64,000 nucleotides of DNA from Vishniacozyma victoriae (Eukaryota; Basidiomycota; Tremellomycetes; Tremellales; Bulleribasidiaceae), in contig JADPYG010000006.1 of NCBI GenBank assembly GCA_017654735.1, forward strand, positions 1 to 64,000, read 5' to 3'. Every line of letters begins with the position of its first letter. The stretch's first letter is position 1. Under the pieces are notes generated by a model, which was given only the letters and a program-made list of their open reading frames with translations, ran no database searches and was not told the DNA's origin. The translations under genes and the position numbers were made by a program. Of the stretch, positions 33,244-64,000 are shown one piece after another.

Positions 33244-33408
33244 AGTGCCGAGCCTCGAGATATGTATACAGTAGAGTAGACTGGGTACTACTAGGCTAGA
33301 GTCAAGCGGTACTACTGGAAATTTGGTTCCGCTACGCGTCGTCGTGTCGAGTAACGTTTACAGTGATGATCCATGATGATATCTGGCAATTGTACCGATG
33401 CTACCAAG

Positions 33409-35595
33409 ATGACAAGCACTCGTGAGGTAGAGCTCAAAGCTCTTCTGGACCGCTTCACCGCTTCCAAACCATCAGCGTCAGCTCCATCTTCGAAAGAGAT
33501 CAAATTACTGGCGGAATCGCTCGTACCCGGTCAACCTCGCGCCGAGCATGCTCTAGCCTATTTGAGCTTATCAAAGATCATAAGCTCCCAAGCTCAATCC
33601 GGAACCTCATCGAAAGATTTACAAGTCAGTGGTGCCGAATATGTCACGGAAGTCTTTGGAAGCTCTACGACCGACCTCGACCCATTGGCCTTTATCCCAT
33701 TTACAGCTTTGGTCGCTTCACTCTTTCCGCTCGATCCTCAATCCGCCCAAATGCTTTTGACGCATCAGATCTCCGTCTCTACCAATAAGGATCTGGTTGA
33801 TGATCCACTGGCTGTTTTATTGGAGGCGGCCGAGCTGCCATCGGCTCTACAACTGGTACTGGCCGACATGCTTGCTCAGGCGGCAGGGACGAAAGTCGGA
33901 CGAGAGGTTATACAATCACGAGCAGAGGATTGGTTGAGAGGAGCCTTGGAACTCAAAAACGACCCGGAGCTGACGGCTGTCTGTGCCGTGGCGCTGAGTA
34001 AGCTCAATGAGGAGGTGGTCCCCGGACAAGAGGGACAGCAGGATATGGACATTATGGGCATGTGCGATAAAATGATGGACGCTGTCAGAGGGAGTCAAGT
34101 TCCAACGACAGCAACTCGATCGTCACTGGAAGGACTGGCCGTCATATCATCGCGTCCTGCTATACGCCAACGACTGGCGGACGATTCTGCCTTTCTCAAG
34201 TCACTCGTAAACCTCTCGCCAATACCGAGACAAAAAGGAGGTTCTCTACCCATCACACCTCGAGCTAGCATCGACCTCGATCTCGAAGCCGAACCTGCCG
34301 ATACCGCCCTTTGCTACGGTATCACCACGATCCTTGTGAATATCACCAGCCTGAAGGCGATACTCTCGGCTGAAGATGAGCAAGCGGCCAAGCTCAGAGC
34401 AATGGCGCTATCTGGCAAGCGGGATACCAGTCACGTCGCACAGGATGACCCACTCGAGTCGGACGAAGCTGTACGCGAAAGAGTGACGCGCGTGATCAGG
34501 GCTGGAGGAATTAAAGCCCTTACTGGACTAGTGAGGGCCGATAGTCAAGTTGTGAAAGCTGGCCTGGGCAAACTATGCCTCAACCTTGTCGAGGATCAGG
34601 GGAATAGGATGGAGTTTATTCGGGATGGTGGATTTAAAGCGCTTTCCACCGTTATTCGAGATCTTTTACCGACATCCGAAAAAGCGCAACCAGCAACATC
34701 CAACGAAGTAAAGATCGTGGCATTACTACCTTCAGCCCAAGCTCTGGCTAAGCTAGTCATTACAACCCCTCCTCACCTCTTATTCCCACCGCCAGTATCT
34801 ACCACATCTCTCAATGCCCTCACACCGCTTTACCATCTCCTCTGCGACTCGTCTTCGTCGTTACTTCAACGCTTCGAAGCCCTCATGGCACTCACCAACA
34901 TTGCCACCATCGAACCTTCAATCGCTACACGGCTGGTACAGGCCACATATACCCCAATCGAAAGAGAAGGCGATACAATGTGGCGTGCAACCGGTCGAGA
35001 AGTCAGAATACGTATTTTCAATCGTATAGAAGAATGTCTTACCAACGACAATACACTTGTCAGGAGGGCTGCTACCGAATTGATCTGCAATTTGATGTCT
35101 TGCGAGGCTGGATATCTGGAATACACCGCTACGACAAACGCCCGTACAGCTTCGAGAATACGCTTAATGCTCATTTTGACCGGTTCCGATGATTTAGCTA
35201 CTCGCTTAGCAGCAGGTGGTACTATTGCAACCATCACCGAATCGCCTGAAGCATGTGCGACCTTGTTGAAGGAAAAGGAACGATCGGCCTGGTCTAGAGT
35301 GATTTCGTATATGGAGTATCAAGATGAGGAGGAAGATGAAGATGGGAACGTCATACCTGTCATATCATCGCTACCGCCAGATGAGGCGTCGATTTATCGA
35401 GCCGCGATCATCTTGTTCAACCTTCTCACTTATGTGACGGGTCTTGAGGAGGTGTCGAAGAAGGAGGAATTGGAGAGGGTTAAAGAAGCTGGTGTTCAAG
35501 ATGCGTTGATGCGTGTTTTGCGATCAAAAGTGGGTCATGAGACCTTAGAGCCAGTTCTTGAATGCTTGAAACTCCTCAAGCGAGAGATTAACTAG
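33409..35595 (+). CDS. UCS-domain myosin chaperone (She4/Rng3/UNC-45 family)
   Basis: A single exon of over 720 residues, rare in this intron-rich window. It is an all-helical ARM-type protein: LSPIPRQKGGSLPITPRAS, GITTILVNITSLKA, GGIKALTGLVRADSQVVKAG, LGKLCLNLVEDQGNRMEFIR, FKALSTVIRDL, LQRFEALMALTNIATIEPSI, NTLVRRAATELICNLMSCEA, RLAAGGTIATITESPEA and RAAIILFNLLTYVTGLEE. These match the central and UCS domains, which fold and stabilise the myosin motor for cytokinesis and endocytosis. It has no N-terminal TPR, as in fungal She4/Rng3. MTSTREVEL at 33409 is the chosen start; an upstream in-frame Met at 33373 would add 12 residues. Confidence 0.88.
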   Translation: MTSTREVELKALLDRFTASKPSASAPSSKEIKLLAESLVPGQPRAEHALAYLSLSKIISSQAQSGTSSKDLQVSGAEYVTEVFGSSTTDLDPLAFIPFTALVASLFPLDPQSAQMLLTHQISVSTNKDLVDDPLAVLLEAAELPSALQLVLADMLAQAAGTKVGREVIQSRAEDWLRGALELKNDPELTAVCAVALSKLNEEVVPGQEGQQDMDIMGMCDKMMDAVRGSQVPTTATRSSLEGLAVISSRPAIRQRLADDSAFLKSLVNLSPIPRQKGGSLPITPRASIDLDLEAEPADTALCYGITTILVNITSLKAILSAEDEQAAKLRAMALSGKRDTSHVAQDDPLESDEAVRERVTRVIRAGGIKALTGLVRADSQVVKAGLGKLCLNLVEDQGNRMEFIRDGGFKALSTVIRDLLPTSEKAQPATSNEVKIVALLPSAQALAKLVITTPPHLLFPPPVSTTSLNALTPLYHLLCDSSSSLLQRFEALMALTNIATIEPSIATRLVQATYTPIEREGDTMWRATGREVRIRIFNRIEECLTNDNTLVRRAATELICNLMSCEAGYLEYTATTNARTASRIRLMLILTGSDDLATRLAAGGTIATITESPEACATLLKEKERSAWSRVISYMEYQDEEEDEDGNVIPVISSLPPDEASIYRAAIILFNLLTYVTGLEEVSKKEELERVKEAGVQDALMRVLRSKVGHETLEPVLECLKLLKREIN

Positions 35596-35788
35596 ATTCA
35601 TTGCATATACATAATGTACTATTACCATGCATAGACCATAGAGACAATAGCATCTGAGCACTCATGATGGAGAAGGTGGTTGATGCGCCACATTGGGTAA
35701 TTCCCGAATTTCCAGGGTGGCGGGATCCCCTTGGTGACTCTGTTGTCTTAATCATCCTTGTAATACACCTATATATCCCTAATCAAAG

Positions 35789-37646
35789 ATGGCAGCTTTA
35801 GCTCGAGCGCTCCCAGCGCCCATCTATACTTCAACAGAGGAAGTCATCGAGGCTCCTCTACCAGCCGCGCCTACACCTTCCAATATCCCTAAATACGGTT
35901 CGCGAAAGGGTTGGAAACCAAAGACTGCTATCGACTTTAATGGTGGAGGAGCTTATCCGGAATGCCATGTCGCTCAATATCCACTTGATATGGGAAGGAA
36001 GAAGCCTGCTGGAGCTGGATCGACTTTGGCTTTGCAGGTTGATCAGGATGGAACTGTTAGATATGATGCTATTGCTCAGTACGGACGAGCACACGGTTCA
36101 AAGGTCCAGTCTAGTTTCAAAGGTAAGCTTCGTATAGCTAGACATCGGTTAGCGCTGATGATAGATCTGGTACCACTCGCCAACCGTGCAGACATGTCAA
36201 AGAAGGATTTAGAGATGGAAAGACCGGATGAAGAAGCAGTCATGTCTACTGCTGAACGTACGCGACTTGCCCTCGAGAAGATCACCCACGGCAAGATCAA
36301 GGCTGCCCAGCCCAAGCACGTACCAAAAGGCAACAACGACGCGTCATACATCCGTTACACACCAGCCAACAACGGAGGAGACGAAGGAAAACAGAGGATT
36401 ATCAAAATGACGGAAGTTCAGGAAGATCCGCTGGAACCACCTAAATTCAAGCACAAGAAGATCCCTCGAGCACCCGATGAACCACCACCACCTGTCTTGC
36501 AGTCTCCTCCTAGAGCTGTTACGGCTCAGGATCAGAAGGACTGGATGATTCCTCCTTGTATCTCGAATTGGAAGAATAACAAGGGTTATACTGTTCCTCT
36601 TGATAAGCGTTTAGCTGCAGATGGAAGAGGATTGCAAGATGTGAGTAGCTGCTACGTACGTAATGTCAACCTAGCTAATGGGATAGGTTCATATTAATGA
36701 CAACTTCGCCAAATTCTCTGAAGCACTATACGTCGCCGACAGACATGCCCGAGATGAAGTCCGAGCTCGTGCACAGATGCAACAGCTTCTCGCCCAAAAG
36801 GAGAAGGCTCAGAAGGAGGAGAACTTGCGAATGTTGGCTCAACGAGCAAGGGAGGAGCGAAGTGGTGTCACACCGTCGGCTGGTGGTTCGGCTATTGGAG
36901 GATCGAGCAAACCCCCACCCGTCATGGGTCTCGGTGGTTACGGATCCGATAGTGATAGTGATAGCGAGGCCGAGGATAGCGAAGACGAGGCTGCAGTCAG
37001 GGAGAGGGAGGAGGTGCGAGCGGAGAAGCGTCGCGAGAGGGAGAAGGAGATGAGGATGAACAACATGGGTACAGAAATGAGGGCCAAGCTGCTGGCAAAG
37101 TGAGTCTATCCCCTTACTGATACAATATGCCGCTAACAATGCAGGGAGCAGAACCGAGATATTTCGGAAAAGATTGCACTCGGTCTCGCCAAGCCAACAG
37201 CAACGAAGGAAACTTTGCTCGACTCGCGTCTGTTCAATCGAGAATCCCTATCAACTGGACACGGTGCCGACGACTCGTACAACCTTTACGACCGACCTCT
37301 GTTCCAAGGCTCCTCGGCCGCCGCCGCCATCTACAAAGCCAAGGGTAACGACCACGGTAACGATGAAGCATATGGAGGTGGAACAGAAGGTGGAATCAGA
37401 ACAGAGATGGAGAAGGACCGATTCGCCCTCGGAAACGCCACTCGTGGATTCGAAGGTGCCGGGTCTGGAGAAGTCCGCGACGGACCTGTCCAATTCGAAA
37501 AGGATGTGGTCATGTCTCTCGATGGTACTTCCGATCCGTTCGGTGTAGAGCAGTTCATGAATGCAGCCAAGAAGGGAGGGAAACGTACAGCCGACGATCT
37601 ACGGGAGGAATCACGTAAGAAGCAGAGGGATGCGGATGATGAGTAG
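35789..37646 (+). CDS. PRP45: Prp45/SNW1 (SKIP) splicing factor
   Basis: Four exons, about 560 residues. The conserved SNW domain is complete: PPYGSRKGWKPKT-like block KYGSRKGWKPKTAIDFNGGG, then YPECHVAQYPLDMG, TLALQVDQDGTVRYDAI, IRYTPANN and the signature PPCISNWKNNKGYTVPLDKR, followed by LAADGRGLQDVHINDNFAKF. Charged helices with RAREER and REREEVRAEKRRERE follow, and the C-terminus has GLAKPTATKETLLDSRLFN, YNLYDRPLF and DPFGVEQFMNAAKKGGKR. SNW proteins sit in the NineTeen-related complex of the catalytic spliceosome and also bridge to transcription. TAG at 37644-37646. Compact 60-70 nt introns. Confidence 0.95.
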
Positions 37647-41114: not shown

Positions 41115-42632
41115 ATGTCGCGAAACGATAATCGTCAAGATCTCCCTCATGTAAGCTCCAAATGCCCACTCGTGGCAGAAGAACTGACGTATAGACTCCC
41201 GCAGTCAACGCCGCTCTCGATAAGTCCTATATCCGCAAGCTTGAGAATGAGCTACGACTCGCTCAAGAAGCCTTCCGTCACGCCGAACAATGTAGACAAC
41301 TCCAAGCTCAGGTTGAAGAGTATAAACACAACACTTCGAAGATTGTCACTGCCCACAATCGAACACAGGAGCCTGGGGAGGTGATGCACTACATTTCGGT
41401 GAAGCAAGAGCATGGCGTTCCCGGGCCAGGTCAGCTCCTCGATGCTGAACATTATAAAATAGCTGATACGGTAGTGAAACGAAAGACGCTTGCCGAAGTC
41501 ATCGATCTTTGCGATTCCGATGACGAATCCACCGAGGGCAATCCCCCGGGATCATCCTCCGCTGGTACTCCCGACTCTGACCAGAACCACAACGAAACAA
41601 ACTCAATCATCTCGGATACGACTCGATCGAAAATACCTGCTATGCAATCCCGACCTGGACCCGGGACACGTATCTTAGCTACTTCTCAAGCTCGAGCAAG
41701 CAGCAAGAGCACGATGTTCCTGGGGAATGTCATGCCGAAACCTGTGGAGGGCGTTTCCGGTTGCCGCGACTACCACCGCTCCAGCGACCGATGTACCTCC
41801 TGTTCCTCAATCGTATTGGCGTAAGCGACTCGATGCCCCTGGAGAATCCGAGTCTGGACCGACTCCGACTCGTCACACTACCACCACCGATTCATCGACA
41901 TCTGCTACATCGCCAAGCATAACCGGTATCACCGAGCCCTCAAAATCGAAGATCAAGAAACGAGCCCCAAAGCCTAAACCCGATCATCCTCACAAATATC
42001 GAGGACCGGAACTCACCGTCTTATCACTTCGAGCCATCTGGAATCACTTGGATCAAGCCTGGAAACAAGCATCCTGTACCGTTCAGACCATCAAGCGACT
42101 CCAGAGTTGGTGGAACACCAACGTCGTTACTTCTACCCATGGGTTGGACACGCACCAGGTCTATCTGTTGCTCTTTGCACAGTATCAATGGTGGCAGGCG
42201 CTGGAGGAGCAGTGGAACAAGTTCGACGCTCTGCCTGATAAAGACAGAAAGGTGATCATGAAGATGAGGGAAATTAGGCTAAGAAAAGAAAGCTATGCTG
42301 TCAAAGCTGAAGCGGCCCTGGTGAATGAGGGTATCACCAAGAACCACGATGCGGTCTATATGCTAGGAGCTGGGGTAAAGAAGGAGAAGACGGATGAGAA
42401 GGAGATCAAGGAGAGGGGCGAGAGTGAAAAGAGGAAGCGAGCTGGACCTGTAGATGCGGATGCGGAGGTGCATAAGGAGGGTGAAGGTGTCCAGGCGAAG
42501 CGAGTCAGATTCGGAAGCGGGGAGATAGCGAATAATGGAGTCAATGGAGTAGTAGGGAGGGACAAGGGACGGCCAGAGGAGGAAGGAGTGGACGATGGTC
42601 TGTCGAGTGATAGTGACGAAGAGGAGGATTGA
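41115..42632 (+). CDS. Tandem trio gene 1: coiled coil, SUMO-interaction-like motif, shared C-terminal domain
   Basis: Starts MSRNDNRQDLPH; a 44-nt intron (41151-41194) joins in frame. A short coiled coil follows (KLENELRLAQEAFRHAEQ). Then VIDLCDSDDES is a textbook SUMO-interaction-like motif, and SVKQEHG fits the sumoylation consensus. To keep frame, an intron of about 115 nt (41670-41784) must be removed to reach PTDVPPVPQSYWRKRL. The C-terminal domain reads PELTVLSLRAIWNHLDQAWK, RLQSWWNTN, TSTHGLDTHQVYLLLFAQYQ and WWQALEEQWNKFD, matching the two downstream genes. The tail is Lys/Glu-rich with KRKRA (nuclear localisation-like) and ends SDSDEEED. I know no family for the domain. A nuclear protein is inferred. 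Stop TGA at 42630-42632. Confidence 0.7.
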
Positions 42633-42922
42633 GAGATTCCGGTCAATACCTGTAGTGATAGACTCAACCCATGTGTAGAATAGTATGGTATGCTCACTAG
42701 TCGTTTTCATATTGTAGATACTGCATGCATATATAACAGGACTAGACTACTACAGCGACTCGAGTCGTCGAATACCGGCTCGACCCTCTATAGGTCTGGA
42801 CAAATGGCATGCTAAGTGGGGTCTCGGCCACGGAGCGCACAGACCTCCTCAGCCGTGTGGCCTTTCTCGTCCCAAGTGATTCTCCATTCATCACTCTACC
42901 CTCTTCGCCACCTTTTACGACA

Positions 42923-44374
42923 ATGACCTCACCACCAGATGTAAAGCCCAATATCGGTGGTAGAAATGCCCCACGCACTCCTACCTATCCTCTTTCCGAT
43001 ATCAAACCTACCCCTCAGAGCCTTACGAAATACAAGGACTCGATCGATTTTACCAGCGAGGTGAATTCAATTCGCCAAGAGCGAGAGAGGCTGGAGGAGA
43101 AACACCAACTACATAAAAGCGTTCTCGATCTTCGAGAAGAGATGTTACAGGTGAAGGAGGAGAATCGTCGCCTTCGAGAGGCGCGTGGGGTTGTAGACCC
43201 CGAACCTGGTTTGACAGACGCCAAGCTTGGTATCTCACGATTTACCGGTGCTGGGGGAGGCAGCAGCACTTTGAAGACGTACGCCGGGGAAGACGTAGAG
43301 GGAGACGATGATGATGTGATCTTTGTCAGTGAGATCAAGTCCGGGACAGCGAAGCCTGTCGTCGATGTGAAACCAGGTCAGTACCGCCGCCGACACAGGT
43401 CCTCACACCGAGCCTCACTAACAATAGCATCAGTCCCAGTACTTCCATATATCCCCGCTGCAGAGTCAGGACCGGCAGCCATAGAGTTATCGACCCACGA
43501 ATCCGACCACTTCAGTCCGATGATCAGGACAGATCGAATCCATCAATCAAACCCTCTGCCGATCCCAGACGGCCACACAACGCCATCGGTCAGAATGAAA
43601 CGTTTCGGCAAACGAACCCGCCCATCCAGACCTACGTTGACAAGGGAGACCATGCCATCCACTGACTCGTCCAGCTCTGAATCGGAATCGTCGGATGATT
43701 ACCCTAGATCCAGCTCAAGGACAGTGTGGCAAAGGTACTACGGTCAGAAGAGAAAGAAGATCGACCTCCTCAACGTCGCGGCAACGGACACCCTCGATCA
43801 ACGATCCAAGACTGCCTTGGCTGGTCACTCGACACCAGACTCATCCGGGTTTAAAAGATCGCCGCCGCTAGAAGCGAAGAAAGCTCAAAGGACCGAAAGA
43901 CAGACCAAAAAGACCTTCAACAAGCCGCGCGTCGTCGAAAGCGACACCGATGACCAAGACTCACAGCCATATCAAGGGCCACACTTGCATGTCCTTTCAG
44001 TTCAGGCTCTCAACGATCGTTTGAACCGCTCCTACCATAGGCGAGGTATGAGTACCAACACGATCATCAAGCTGTCTCGCTGGTGGCCAAAATCAAGCGT
44101 GATTTCACATCACAGACTAGATGCCAGTGGAATGTTCCTCCTAACCTGGGCTGTGCACGTGTGGTGGAGCAACCTCTGGAATGAGGTCAATTCGCCAAGG
44201 TACAAGTGGCCTAGCGGATCGGGCAGATCAGAGAAAAAAGAGTTGATGTCGAGAGTTAGGGAGGTGGCGTTGATAAAGGAAGGATTTGCGTTGAGGAGTG
44301 AAAGGGATATGATTAGTGCAGACAAGGTCATTTCGCCTGATTCGATTATCAAATTGAAAGACTCGAGGAAGTAG
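42923..44374 (+). CDS. Tandem trio gene 2: coiled coil, acidic hydrophobic motif, shared C-terminal domain
   Basis: Start chosen at MTSPPDVKPNIGG because the trio's third gene begins in the same way; a Met 38 codons upstream (42809) is less likely. Then ERERLEEKHQLHKSVL and QVKEENRRLRE form a coiled coil, and EGDDDDVIFVSEIKSG resembles an acidic-flanked SUMO-interaction motif. A probable 57-nt intron (43377-43433, CACTAACAATAG branch region) removes 19 codons without breaking frame. A Ser-rich, Arg-rich middle follows. The C-terminal domain is PHLHVLSVQALNDRLNRSYH, TIIKLSRWWPK, SHHRLDASGMFLLTWAVHVW and WSNLWNEVNSP. It is closer to gene 3 than to gene 1. No known family is recognised. Confidence 0.7.
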   Translation: MTSPPDVKPNIGGRNAPRTPTYPLSDIKPTPQSLTKYKDSIDFTSEVNSIRQERERLEEKHQLHKSVLDLREEMLQVKEENRRLREARGVVDPEPGLTDAKLGISRFTGAGGGSSTLKTYAGEDVEGDDDDVIFVSEIKSGTAKPVVDVKPGQYRRRHRSSHRASLTIASVPVLPYIPAAESGPAAIELSTHESDHFSPMIRTDRIHQSNPLPIPDGHTTPSVRMKRFGKRTRPSRPTLTRETMPSTDSSSSESESSDDYPRSSSRTVWQRYYGQKRKKIDLLNVAATDTLDQRSKTALAGHSTPDSSGFKRSPPLEAKKAQRTERQTKKTFNKPRVVESDTDDQDSQPYQGPHLHVLSVQALNDRLNRSYHRRGMSTNTIIKLSRWWPKSSVISHHRLDASGMFLLTWAVHVWWSNLWNEVNSPRYKWPSGSGRSEKKELMSRVREVALIKEGFALRSERDMISADKVISPDSIIKLKDSRK

Positions 44375-44757
44375 GATCGACTAGAGCGTAGGCGTAATCT
44401 GCAGGTGTCGTCAATGTTATTTCCCATGTATCACTGAATGAAGATGGACCGAATGTCGATGCCTGTGTTGCTGTGGTCCCGCGACCCAGTCTGGTAAGTA
44501 TCACGGGAGACTGACTCGTCTTCGTCCGACATTCCCCCCTATGCTTGAATCCACAAGTACTCGTCCATGAGTCGTGATACTTGGGCAATTCTCATCAGGC
44601 ATCCTGAGATGGCTTCGGATGAAGAAGTATCCACAGAGTACACTCTGCCGGGGGCCTCACTGACGTCACGTGAACGCACGGACCCATTGGCGGCGGACGA
44701 TGGAGCACGGCCTGCGAGTTGAGCCAACTCTAAGAAGTGTTCCGCCGCCAACGAGAC
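44375..44757. other. Spacer between trio genes 2 and 3
   Basis: 383 bp. No gene is seen, and the promoter has no obvious element. Confidence 0.5.
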
Positions 44758-46161
44758 ATGGACTCCCCCATGGACATCAAGCCAAATATATCAGGGCCCG
44801 CCACTCCTACTCTTTGTCCCTTGCCTCGAATTCATGGCGACATCAAGCCTGCCCTTCCCGATCTCGCTGGAAACGCAACATTGAGAGATTTCCGAAAAGA
44901 GCGAGAGGTCCTGAAGAAGCAGTACGACTTGGAAAAGAGAAACCTTGATCTTGAAGAGGAGAACCGACTCTTGCGATCACGACCGGCTGTAAAGATCGAG
45001 CCTGGAGCTGGGGAGCTTAAGCCAGATTTCACAAGGTTGGATGGGGGCGGTGGATTGACGCCGGTTGATTTGGGTCTCGTAGAGGACAGCGAAGATGAAA
45101 ATGATGTCGTGTTCGTTCGGGAGGTCAAGGGTGGAAGGATCAAGCCCAGCATTTCAGGTAAGTCATCATCTTGATTTGGAGGCCTTCACTGATATTTTGT
45201 AGGTCGAATTCCCTCCGACGCACCAGTTAAGGCAGAAACTTCAACATCTGAATCTTCGATCACCTTGAACCTTGAAGAGGATACCCCGAGCGCCCCTGTC
45301 AACCCAGATCGACGGAGTCAATCGAAGCAACCCCCACTGTCTCATTCCGAGCAACCCGAACGGGCCTCTCCCAGTCTTCCACCCCGCCGGAAGCCAAGTA
45401 TCGTCCGTGGAAAGAGCCACAGAAGAGGATTTTCAGCGGCTTCTCATGGTTCGCCAGGTACTGAATCTTCCGATAGCTCCGACGATACCTACACCGGACG
45501 TTCTCCGACACCTATCTGGGGAGCAACTCGGAAGGAAGGAAAGAAGGCGCGTCGACGTCGCAGAGTCGATATCACGACCAGTCAAAACGGCCACAGACAT
45601 TCAAGGACCGGGAACGGTTCACAATCGAGAGATTCTCGTTTCGCTGGAACCTTGGACACTGCGAAAACGAGTAGTGGGAGCGAGGATGGGAAGGCGGAAG
45701 CCGACGACTCGAACAGTGGCGAAGACGAGTACACTGGTCCATATAGAGGGCCGCACCTCCATGTCATTTCAGTAGAATGGATCAACGATCGTCTTGATCG
45801 CTCGTTCCAGAAATACCGGATGTCTCTCGATTACCTCGGACAATGGGCTGCCGGGTGGCCTAGGACAAAAGTTGCAAGGCATCACCGACTTGACCCCGCT
45901 GGGATTTGGCTCTTGATGGTGGGGGTCCACAAATGGTGGAGTGATCTTCTCGAGGAACTCAATTCCCCAGATGTCGAGTGGCCAGAAGGACTGGATGAAG
46001 TAGGGCAAGATGATATAAGGATGAAAGTCGAGGAGATTACGTTGGCGAAGGAGAGTGCGATGGTCGCGGCGAAAAGAATCATGTTGAAAGACGGCGAAGC
46101 GATTCCGATGGACTCGGTGTTGCATCTCCGTCATGGAACGCGAAATACGATCGAGAGGTGA
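44758..46161 (+). CDS. Tandem trio gene 3: coiled coil, acidic hydrophobic motif, shared C-terminal domain
   Basis: Starts MDSPMDIKPNISG, parallel to gene 2. A coiled coil follows (RKEREVLKKQYDLEKRNLDL), then AVKIEPGAGELKP with a perfect sumoylation consensus, and EDENDVVFVREVKGG, the acidic-flanked hydrophobic core found at the same place in gene 2. A 45-nt intron (45158-45202) leads to PVKAETSTSE, another sumoylation-type site. A long Ser/Arg/Asp-rich region precedes the shared domain: PHLHVISVEWINDRLDRSFQ, YLGQWAAGWPR, HHRLDPAGIWLLMVGVHKW and WSDLLEELNSPDVEWPEGL. TGA at 46159-46161. No family known to me contains this domain. Nuclear, SUMO-linked function is inference. Confidence 0.7.
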
Positions 46162-60303: not shown

Positions 60304-61683
60304 ATGTCGTCAATATCACCTTTCTCCGAACCCCTCCCCTCTCCTCCGCTCCAGTCTGTGCCCGTAGCAGCACCTGCGCCAGTCAAGCCCAAATCGAAAC
60401 CTCGAAAAAGGGTCAACACTGCTGAAAAGCGACATCAGCATAATGCTATCGAGCGTGCTCGACGTGAGAGTCTCAACAACAAGTTCTTGACTCTTGCTCG
60501 TCTACTTCCATCTTTGGCCAACCACCGACGACCATCCAAGTCGGCGATTGTCAATGGTTCCATTGGTCATGTCAACAAGGCACGCGAACAGCGTCTATTA
60601 GCTGCCACCTTGCTCAAGGAGCTCTGCAAGGAGCGCGATGAGCTTTTCGCAGAGGTCAACGAGTGGCGTAAAGCCGGCGGTATCGGTCGCAGAGAAGGCT
60701 CGTCAAACGCCTGGAACGACGAGATGGAGCAGGTTTGCAGTGTCGAGACTGAAGTCTTTGGCAACTTTGCTTCCATGGGTGGCGATGATGATGGGGAGGA
60801 CGAGGCCGAGGCCGAGGTCAGCGAGCCGGTATTCGCTATGCCCTCGACCAACGGTAATGGACTATTCACACCTCGAGACTCTACCGATATCGATCCCATG
60901 ACAATGTTTGCTCAACCTCAACGACCTTCTGCCGTCAACTTTCAATCCATGAACTGGTCTCACGATTTCGCCAACCAGCTCAATGCTCCCATCAACCACC
61001 AAAACCCGACTCCGAGCATGTCCAACAGCACCCCGCTGCCGTTCGGTGCTTTCATGTCCGACTCGACCGACTCGCCCGGGACCTCGCAACTCGGAAACAG
61101 CATCATGCTTACTCCACCCACGACAGCCGATCCAATAAGTATGTACACCCACACACCATCTCCTCCTGCGCCTCGACCATCTAGCGCCAGTATCGATGTC
61201 AAGCCTGTTCTACCCCAGCGACAGAACTCGGCTCAACCGTGGACACCGCAACAACTTTTGTTCTTGCAGCAGATTCAGCAGCATCAAGCTCAGGTTCGAC
61301 AACATCAACAGAACCTCGCCAATCACTATACTTCTTTCCCCGCCAATGTTGCTGCTGGTAGCAACAATCCTGCCGAGGGTTTCACTCAATCCCTCATCGC
61401 AACCATGTTCCCTCAACAGGCTCATGTAGCGCCTCCTCAAGCCCCGGCAAATATGGGCATGAACATGAACATGAACCTCGGCCAAGGTGGAAATGGCGGT
61501 ATGGAGCAGGTTCAGCAATGGCGAAAAGCGGCTCTCACAAGCTTCCTCCAACAGCACGGTCATGCAAATGCCCAGCTTCCCATGCGGGATATGCCATCAG
61601 TTTCGCCATACCAACAACCTATGCTCACCCCTCTTTTGGGTATGAATGGCAATGGTTGGTCGCCGGAGAATGAGGGATTCTAG
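60304..61683 (+). CDS. bHLH transcription factor
   Basis: A single exon of 459 residues. Basic helix-loop-helix domain at about residues 38-90: EKRHQHNAIERARRESLNNK carries the His/Glu/Arg DNA-reading residues of E-box binders, followed by FLTLARLLPSLANHRRPSKS and AIVNGSIGHV, and a short helix ATLLKELCKERDELFAEV. An acidic patch (DDDGEDEAEAEV) and a Gln/Asn/Met/Pro-rich C-terminal half (QIQQHQAQVRQHQQNLANHY, NMGMNMNMNLGQGGNGG) look like activation domains. The protein should dimerise and bind CANNTG-like sites in the nucleus. No known orthologue name is assigned. The leader before the ATG is long, intronless as seen, and C/A-rich. Confidence 0.88.
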   Translation: MSSISPFSEPLPSPPLQSVPVAAPAPVKPKSKPRKRVNTAEKRHQHNAIERARRESLNNKFLTLARLLPSLANHRRPSKSAIVNGSIGHVNKAREQRLLAATLLKELCKERDELFAEVNEWRKAGGIGRREGSSNAWNDEMEQVCSVETEVFGNFASMGGDDDGEDEAEAEVSEPVFAMPSTNGNGLFTPRDSTDIDPMTMFAQPQRPSAVNFQSMNWSHDFANQLNAPINHQNPTPSMSNSTPLPFGAFMSDSTDSPGTSQLGNSIMLTPPTTADPISMYTHTPSPPAPRPSSASIDVKPVLPQRQNSAQPWTPQQLLFLQQIQQHQAQVRQHQQNLANHYTSFPANVAAGSNNPAEGFTQSLIATMFPQQAHVAPPQAPANMGMNMNMNLGQGGNGGMEQVQQWRKAALTSFLQQHGHANAQLPMRDMPSVSPYQQPMLTPLLGMNGNGWSPENEGF

Positions 61684-62105: not shown

Positions 62106-64000
62106 ATGCCAGGCACAGCAAAGCGCAATTCATACGTCCCCGTTGACGACAAGACCGCCGGTCGGAGCCACAGCACACCGCGACAGGCCGACCGATTCGA
62201 CCAACGCCTAGACACGGTCAAGCACGGTTCACCCAGACCTCAAACTCTAGAAGAGAAACTACGACTCGAAGCTCTCGGTCAGCATGCCCCAGGCAAAAGT
62301 AAAGTAGTGACACTACCTCAATGGCCTCCTAGGCTCAACGAAGACCGTATAGCCTACTTGACACGTAAAGCGACAACATGGGCTCTCGCTCATAGTTTCG
62401 TTCTTGTCCCGCCCCATCCTGCCGATGATGATATGGACCCTAGGGATCGACCTTCCAATCTACCCCCTATTCGAGCTCAACCCGCCCCATTATCGCTATT
62501 CCCCACTCCATTCCCTCGTCGATTATATCAGCAAGCCAATTCTTTGCAGAACATGCTTAATGCGCTTTACTTGCGTGTCACCCTCGACTGGACGTTCATG
62601 GATAGGATAATGGAGAAGGTCGCTCCAGTCGATGCGTTCCAAGCCCGATTATATCATTATGCGAAGAAGATGCGTGGACGGGCAAACACGGTATGTCCTG
62701 CCAATTCTGCGTTGGTGGTTCATCGCTGATGAACAGAGTCGACAACTTGGTATCTTCCGATCAGATTACTTGCTTCACGAACAGGAAGTCGGTAAGCCAC
62801 TCGAGCTACGTCAAGTCGAGTTCAACACTATCGCCTCTTCATTCGGCGCACTATCACAAAAAGCAAACGAGCTACACAGGTGAGTCATGCCAATTGGGAT
62901 TGAGCTGATGGTAGGTACTTGACAAGCTCGACTGGTGGATATTGGGGAGTCGATCCATTATTGCAGGACATGCGAAATTATGCCTCGCCAAAAGCCCTTT
63001 ACGGTGTCTCCGAATCACTCGCTCATGCCTGGCGAGCTTACGGTAACAAACAAGCTATCGTCTTGATGATTGTCCAGCCGGGAGAGAGGAATATTTGGGA
63101 TCAGACTCTCATCGAGTACGAATTGCAATCACGGTATGTCAATCTTGAGCTTCCATCTCGAATACAGCTCATCAACTAGTCACGGAATCAGACTTGAACG
63201 AAGGACATTCAAGGAGCTACAGGACAAGCACAAGCCAATGGGTATCGAGAGGATCAAGAATCGATTACTACTCCCCGGGATGGTCGACGCTCATGGATGG
63301 TCCGAAGTTGCCGTTGTCTACTTCCGAGCCGGTTACGCACCGGAGGACATGATGGATGCAGGACCTGCTCCTTGGGAAGTCCGAGAAATAATCGAGAAAT
63401 CGACCGCTATCAAATGCCCTACGATGGCTATGCAACTCGCCGGTTGTAAGAAGGTTCAACAGGTCTTGGCGGAACCTGGTGTCCTCGAGGAGTTCCTACT
63501 TGGCGAGCAACGACCCGATACTGGTTTCGGAACTGGACGTGGAGTCTTGACGGATGCAGATGTCGTCCGCATTCGAGAGACCTGGATGGGCATGTGGCCA
63601 ATGGATCATACCCCCGCAGGCGAGGAGGGACGTAAACTCGCCATGACGGAGTCGGAACGATTCGTACTCAAACCACAACGAGAAGGAGGAGGAAACAACA
63701 TTTACCGAGGCGACATCCCACCCAAACTCCGTGAATTGTCACAGACAAAGGTCAAAGCTGGAACTCCATCCGCTATCGAACAGTACATCCTCATGGAATT
63801 GATCAAGACTCCTGAAGGACTGCATAATTGGTTATTGAAAGGAGGAGATATGGTCCCAAGAAAGGCCGAGGTGGTCAGCGAGTTGGGGATCTACGGGGCT
63901 ATTCTCTACTTGGACGAAAAGGTTGTTGTGAACAAGAAGATTGGATCTCTTCTAAGGACGAAAGGAAAGGAGAGTGATGAGGGTGGTGTTGCTATTGGTA
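62106..64000 (+). CDS. GSH2: Glutathione synthetase (partial, 3' end outside the window)
   Basis: ATP-dependent ligation of glycine to gamma-glutamylcysteine, the last step of glutathione synthesis, in the cytosol. Start MPGTAKRNSYVPVDDKTAGR. Family blocks appear in order after short introns: LYQQANSLQNMLNALYLRVT, GIFRSDYLLHE, VEFNTIASSFGALS, then LERRTFKELQD, VVYFRAGYAPEDM, AIKCPTMAMQLAGCKKVQQV, RFVLKPQREGGGNNIYRGDI (ATP-binding grasp loop) and IEQYILMELI. The gene runs off the right edge before the C-terminal glycine-rich loop can be seen. It joins the metallothioneins and the Zap1-like factor as thiol/metal biology in this window. No break is visible. Confidence 0.93.

Follow-up and report, generated by a model that had tools for sequence, protein, structure and literature searches.

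The HD mating-type genes of basidiomycetes are neighbouring genes which encode highly variable nuclear proteins with coiled-coil-like N-termini, and no recognition gene other than those of mating type is known to have been cloned in the Kwoniella and Cryptococcus group. Motifs that resemble the SUMO-interacting motif (SIM) are short and are common in acidic disordered proteins. Among the SUMO readers that carry such motifs, PIAS is described as having a VIDLT core whose flanks favour tight SUMO binding (PMC3901395). In Aspergillus, the het genes are reported to occur as allele types common to sister species (PMC11138114).

The locus described herein comprises three tandem genes, referred to as genes 1 to 3. 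New here are a SIM-like motif in each of the three paralogues and the mosaic structure of gene 1, both of which had escaped the original prediction for this DNA.

Organisation of the locus and gene models

The three genes lie head to tail on the plus strand of the window, the whole stretch of 64,000 nt that was analysed, and are flanked by a family-3 glycoside hydrolase gene and a C2H2 zinc-finger gene in the Pfam-based annotation. Further Pfam matches, at 33373-36697, 60304-61683 and 62106-62729, belong to UNC45-central, SKIP/SNW, bHLH and glutathione synthase genes, which are ordinary neighbours. The head-to-tail order that had been predicted was borne out, whereas the predicted introns had been missed and gene 1 proved not to be a single open frame.

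Searches of public contigs at the protein level, limited to candidates with exact words in common with the query, yielded 20 distinct relatives (P0001-P0020; from the sources jgi, ena and lgn), all of which carry either no name or that of 'hypothetical protein'. Their contigs are, at a guess based on length, metagenome contigs; no relative was found on the viral contigs searched. P0003 (gene-3-like) and P0019 (gene-2-like) appear to share one contig, judging from the equal size (4,846) and source of their contigs. Nothing on these genes was found among the openly licensed literature entries listed.

All introns and gene models were predicted from splice-site consensus only. Gene 2 (42923..44374, +) consists of exons 42923-43376 and 43428-44374, separated by a predicted intron of 51 nt in phase 1 (43377-43427), and encodes 466 aa; gene 3 (44758..46161, +) consists of exons 44758-45157 and 45203-46161 around a predicted intron of 45 nt, also in phase 1 (45158-45202), and encodes 452 aa. 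The intron position looks common to genes 2 and 3, because both introns are in phase 1 and both lie 13-17 codons past the SIM-like motif. The predicted intron of gene 2 is in frame and free of stops, so that it appears as protein in a mechanical translation, and the same is true of P0016; P0002, a near full-length relative of gene 3, likewise seems to contain a read-through intron of 16 residues.

Gene 1 (41115..42632, +) begins with exon 41115-41150, followed by a predicted intron (41151-41194) and by a frame which runs from 41195 to about 41760, where another frame takes over and continues to the stop at 42632. A further 45-nt intron candidate, 41430-41474, was rejected: it has a coding score of 0.34 per codon over 14 codons, and all 7 relatives covering this stretch align to it free of gaps. 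Near the N-terminus, gene 1 encodes a charged helix of coiled-coil-like appearance (41225..41326, +), and coiled-coil-like stretches were recognised, equally by eye, in gene 2 (43073..43186, +) and gene 3 (44893..44976, +). The tail of gene 1 (42375..42629, +), with VKKE, the basic patches KRKR and KRVRF and the acidic end LSSDSDEEED, has no counterpart in genes 2 and 3.

The change of frame in gene 1 falls near 41,760 (41750-41770) in the assembly, and codon bias switches frame at the same place, with values of 0.23 and 0.18 per codon on the two sides compared to -0.29 to -0.44 in the wrong frames. The comparison with P0005 gave two abutting matches, 41384-41761 and 41760-42629, and the break site is open in the 9 relatives covering it (P0004-P0011 and P0015). 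An intron bridging the break was considered and rejected: 7 candidates of fitting length were found within a set limited to GT..AG donors and acceptors (GC donors being outside it), and all seven lack a CAG or TAG end. Because of these missing ends and the nine open relatives, a frame break, be it error or real, is preferred to an intron, with a faulty assembly and a broken allele as its two possible origins. The break sits 60-80 nt past the first switch point of the mosaic described below.

The shared C-terminal domain and the age of the triplication

The homology of the C-terminal regions, which had been read from the sequence by alignment, was examined with HMMs built from outside relatives only (9, 5 and 3 sequences for genes 1, 2 and 3, and no window sequence), which were run against the 450 stop-to-stop frames of at least 60 aa in the window and against shuffled frames. 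Each HMM ranked the frames 41679-42629, 42794-44371 and 45193-46158 on top among the 450. The E values were 3.1e-77 to 1.9e-80 for the HMM's own frame and 6.6e-16 to 1.6e-38 for the other paralogues, far beyond chance, the best other real frame reaching 0.3 and the best shuffled frame 0.49. The closer kinship of genes 2 and 3 was also confirmed, their cross matches being at about 1e-37 compared to 1e-16 to 1e-20 with gene 1. On the basis of these profiles and the alignment, the domain was placed at 41997..42380 in gene 1, 43970..44353 in gene 2 and 45742..46125 in gene 3 (all +), with AlphaFold as additional evidence for genes 1 and 3. The motif list originally given for the domain is largely right, except that gene 3 has GW where its 3 relatives have WW, and that the element L-x-x-E-x-N reads L-x-x-Q-x-N in gene 1.

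Structure prediction, which had been proposed as a check, gave a common five-helix domain for genes 3 and 1, with the same layout and helix order (mean pLDDT 82.6 and 80.7). In each of the 17 relatives compared, namely 5 of gene 2, 3 of gene 3 and 9 of gene 1, with P0012-P0014 left out and P0015 covering just 21 domain residues, conservation is higher in the domain than in the preceding stretch. The identities were, for instance, 83.9% for the domain and 57.4% for the stretch ahead in P0001, and 94.8% and 85.1% in P0016; in P0005 the difference is small for one linker piece, at 88.5% as against 91.2% for the domain. The gene 1 domain is 82-94% identical to those of six relatives (P0004-P0009). 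This conservation supports the earlier suggestion that the tandem copies form a diverged family which is under constraint.

The domain tree was calculated from 22 sequences, comprising the 3 window copies and 19 relatives, P0015 being omitted since it ends early in the domain. It showed three groups, one per gene, with 12 rows for gene 1 (support 100/100), 6 for gene 2 (92/90, not starred) and 4 for gene 3 (98/93); the division between gene 1 and the other two genes has a support of 100/100 in this unrooted tree, in which long branches meet at that point. Because each group holds a window copy together with outside relatives, the triplication is, as judged from the tree, older than the split from the lineages of the relatives. 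In the own genome, searched in six frames over 11.58 Mb on 17 contigs and possibly not entire, the gene 3 frame found at least three loci at E ≤0.001, all of them in this cluster, and P0005 found the same loci at E ≤1, with a single gene-1 locus as a lower bound. A lineage-specific expansion would be compatible with these loci, all lying here, within a search that covered the own genome and public contigs.

Family membership was judged by a profile match with E well under 0.001 common to the members. Among 22 members, no convincing match was found in Pfam, where the best E was 0.0029 (Elf4, in 1 of 22) and the most widespread match was DUF5039 (4 of 22, best E 0.01), or in NCBIfam, where the best E was 0.0056 (1 of 22). 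The PDB gave no convincing match by sequence (best E 1.1 and 0.31). The fold matches in the PDB, among them those to CorA, MukF, BAG, Munc13 and myosin V tails, were middling and mixed, none standing out, and were taken as background. With no relative standing out in the three resources, the suspicion that the domain belongs to no existing family holds good, and the three genes stand as a fungal family outside the libraries searched, its novelty being relative to those libraries only.

Searches for particular domains in the 22 members gave no match to RING or SP-RING at E ≤1, to HET or NACHT, or to the homeodomain at E ≤1. A mating-type locus was rejected, as all four homeodomain matches in the 11.58 Mb (L004-L007) are on other contigs, C3 and C11, the window being on C6. 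STE3 had no match in the same, possibly partial, 11.58 Mb, where the controls were equally matchless.

SIM-like motifs and the mosaic structure of gene 1

Each paralogue contains a SIM-like motif ahead of the domain: VIDLCDSDDE in gene 1 (41498..41527, +), kept in all 9 gene-1 relatives covering the site; an acidic run followed by VIFV in gene 2 (DDDDVIFV, 43304..43327, +), kept in P0016; and an acidic run followed by VVFV in gene 3 (ENDVVFV, 45088..45117, +), kept in P0002. Retention thus amounts to 11 of the 11 covering relatives, with a single relative each for genes 2 and 3. A strict SIM pattern, in which a hydrophobic core of four adjoins a six-residue stretch holding three or more acidic residues and no fewer than four that are acidic or serine, matched exactly once per paralogue. 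At least one match occurred in 1.6% of the shuffles of the gene 1 N part and, for genes 2 and 3, whose non-domain parts were shuffled, in 4.4% and 3.4%, figures that serve as a guide rather than a clean test since the pattern was defined after the motifs had been noticed; 13 other frames of the window, with 4,709 residues in all, gave 1 match. The core has its acidic residues behind it in gene 1 and ahead of it in genes 2 and 3, and because of this difference the motif may not be one inherited element across the paralogues.

The psi-K-x-E motif was in excess over shuffles in gene 3 (3 seen vs 0.41 expected, P 0.0055). For gene 1 the excess was marginal in the C part (P 0.059) and absent in the N part (P 0.15), and gene 2 likewise showed none (P 0.37).

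The alignment and trees showed that gene 1 of the window is a mosaic at the protein level, a block at 41699..42036 (+) being nearest to P0005 and both of its flanks nearest to P0004. In columns 41-112 the window protein matches P0004 at 49 of 57 positions and P0005 at 30 of 63; in columns 116-226 the relation is reversed (58/111 and 98/111), and in columns 300-410 it returns to P0004 (100/110 and 64/105). AU tests rejected the pairing of the window with P0005 in the N part (p 0.0013) and the C part (p 0.013), and its pairing with P0004 in the middle (p 0.00054). For the favoured pair, support was moderate with P0004 (86/96 in the N part, 80/78 in the C part) and reached 99/97 with P0005 in the middle, the sole starred value; the pairs had been named after the mosaic pattern was seen.

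A permutation test on ordered informative sites placed 34 of 338 gene-1 triplets at the floor (0.0005), 22 of the 360 possible triplets having been dropped for too few or one-sided sites; the triplets overlap, and this floor is higher than the Bonferroni level (0.00015). The same test placed at the floor none of 59 gene 2 triplets (1 of 60 dropped; smallest p 0.0155) and none of 12 gene 3 triplets (smallest p 0.020), that is 0 of 71, a comparison of unequal power, in which the minimum site numbers were 30 and 15 in the two runs and the gene 2 and gene 3 sets hold fewer close relatives. Part of the P0005-like block is found again in P0009: this protein agrees in columns 116-150 with P0005 at 28 of 35 positions and with P0008 at 22 of 35, and elsewhere it is P0008-like (50/63 vs 26/63 with P0005 in the N part, 90/105 vs 71/105 in the C part).

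A possible adaptor function and comparison with known systems

The best explanation of these data, advanced tentatively and at somewhat less than an even chance, is that the three genes are old tandem paralogues, each probably encoding a nuclear SUMO-binding adaptor, with gene 1 highly variable. The N-terminal coiled coil recognised by eye would pair the protein, the SIM in the disordered middle would dock on SUMO or on SUMOylated partners, and the basic patches would carry the protein to the nucleus, whereas the five-helix domain, in which Trp-Trp pairs and a histidine are conserved, would hold a protein partner. Gene 1 would be the most diverged member, with its own basic and acidic tail and with strongly different versions that look recombined.

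The five-helix domain could instead be a sequence-specific DNA-binding module, in which three short helices come before two long ones that serve dimerisation, which would make the genes transcription factors. Its all-helical prediction with the short helices first (AlphaFold, genes 3 and 1), the basic patches, a single weak LEAFY-type Pfam match among the 22 members (E 0.038) and the PadR-type regulators among the low-ranked fold matches are compatible with such a role. The net charge of the domain (K+R minus D+E), however, is +4 in gene 1, +9 in gene 2 and -5 in gene 3, and this difference speaks against conserved DNA binding; of the 9 invariant domain residues, one is K and the other 8 are W, H or L, and no fold match in the PDB stands out, so that this role is regarded as clearly unlikely. 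The decay of gene 1 in this strain, with a real frame-broken allele and a cluster drifting without function, would explain the break near 41,760, which an assembly error would render identically; it is very doubtful in view of the codon bias kept on both sides of the break, the identity of the gene 1 domain to those of P0004-P0009 and the intact genes 2 and 3.

The mosaic of gene 1 can be traced either to true recombination among diverged versions, which we infer to be rather probable and the likelier of the two, or to an origin in assembly chimeras, be they in the relatives' sources or in the window, or in gene conversion between multiple gene-1 copies carried by the relatives' genomes. The contigs of the relatives are mostly short (the longest per cluster 1.5 to 31 kb) and the break just past the first switch point could mark a faulty haplotype join, but the middle block agrees with P0005 at 98 of 111 positions, which falls short of near-identity and argues that P0005 itself is not the source; moreover, a piece of the block recurs in P0009, whose cluster stands for two contigs, and the own genome shows one gene-1 locus as a lower bound. 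Chimeras or conversion are considered unlikely, although still a serious contender. Gene 1 might also be a multi-allelic self/non-self (incompatibility) gene under balancing selection, partnered by genes 2 and 3, which would accord with the alternation of its nearest relative along the gene (P0004, P0005, P0004), with the AU rejections and the support of the P0005 pairing in the middle, with the excess of floor triplets over genes 2 and 3, and with the parallel to the Aspergillus het genes and their reported allele types common to sister species (PMC11138114). This proposal is nevertheless quite improbable: in the contigs of the relatives, alleles are not separable from species and chimeric assemblies are possible, and none of the 34 floor triplets combines the window with only proteins whose cluster stands for at least two contigs. 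In addition, the P0004 pairing has moderate support in pairs picked post hoc, the gene 2 and gene 3 sets are small, HET and NACHT are without a match in the 22 members, and the divergence of gene 1 was gauged within the family itself. It is tempting to speculate, as a long shot, that both ideas apply together and that gene 1 of this fungal lineage, as a recombining recognition gene with many alleles and without a HET or NACHT domain, works in self/non-self recognition by assembling with its tandem partners in the nucleus in a SUMO-dependent way.

The locus adds a compact and old family of three paralogues with a fold candidate of its own, for which SUMO docking offers a testable working idea. 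In comparison with PIAS and RNF4, which are SIM-bearing SUMO readers, the three proteins show a short hydrophobic core (VIDL, VIFV or VVFV) with an acidic flank, in a stretch without matched domains, and likewise possess basic patches; they differ in that the family has no RING or SP-RING match (E ≤1, 22 members) and its C-terminal domain no convincing Pfam match, SUMO binding being a prediction here. The resemblance to the HD mating-type genes lies in the neighbouring arrangement, the variability, the predicted nuclear location and the coiled-coil-like N-termini, the last judged by eye, whereas the 22 members gave no homeodomain match and the four homeodomain matches of the own genome are on contigs other than that of the window. 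The family also differs from the hetA-hetE genes of Aspergillus in having no HET or NACHT match and in being known from sequences alone. The likeness to these genes is that of strongly diverged versions of one gene, in gene 1 with mosaic structure (PMC11138114). The diversity of gene 1 thus resembles the pattern of incompatibility genes, and if its variants prove to be alleles at one locus, gene 1 would become a direct candidate for a recognition gene.
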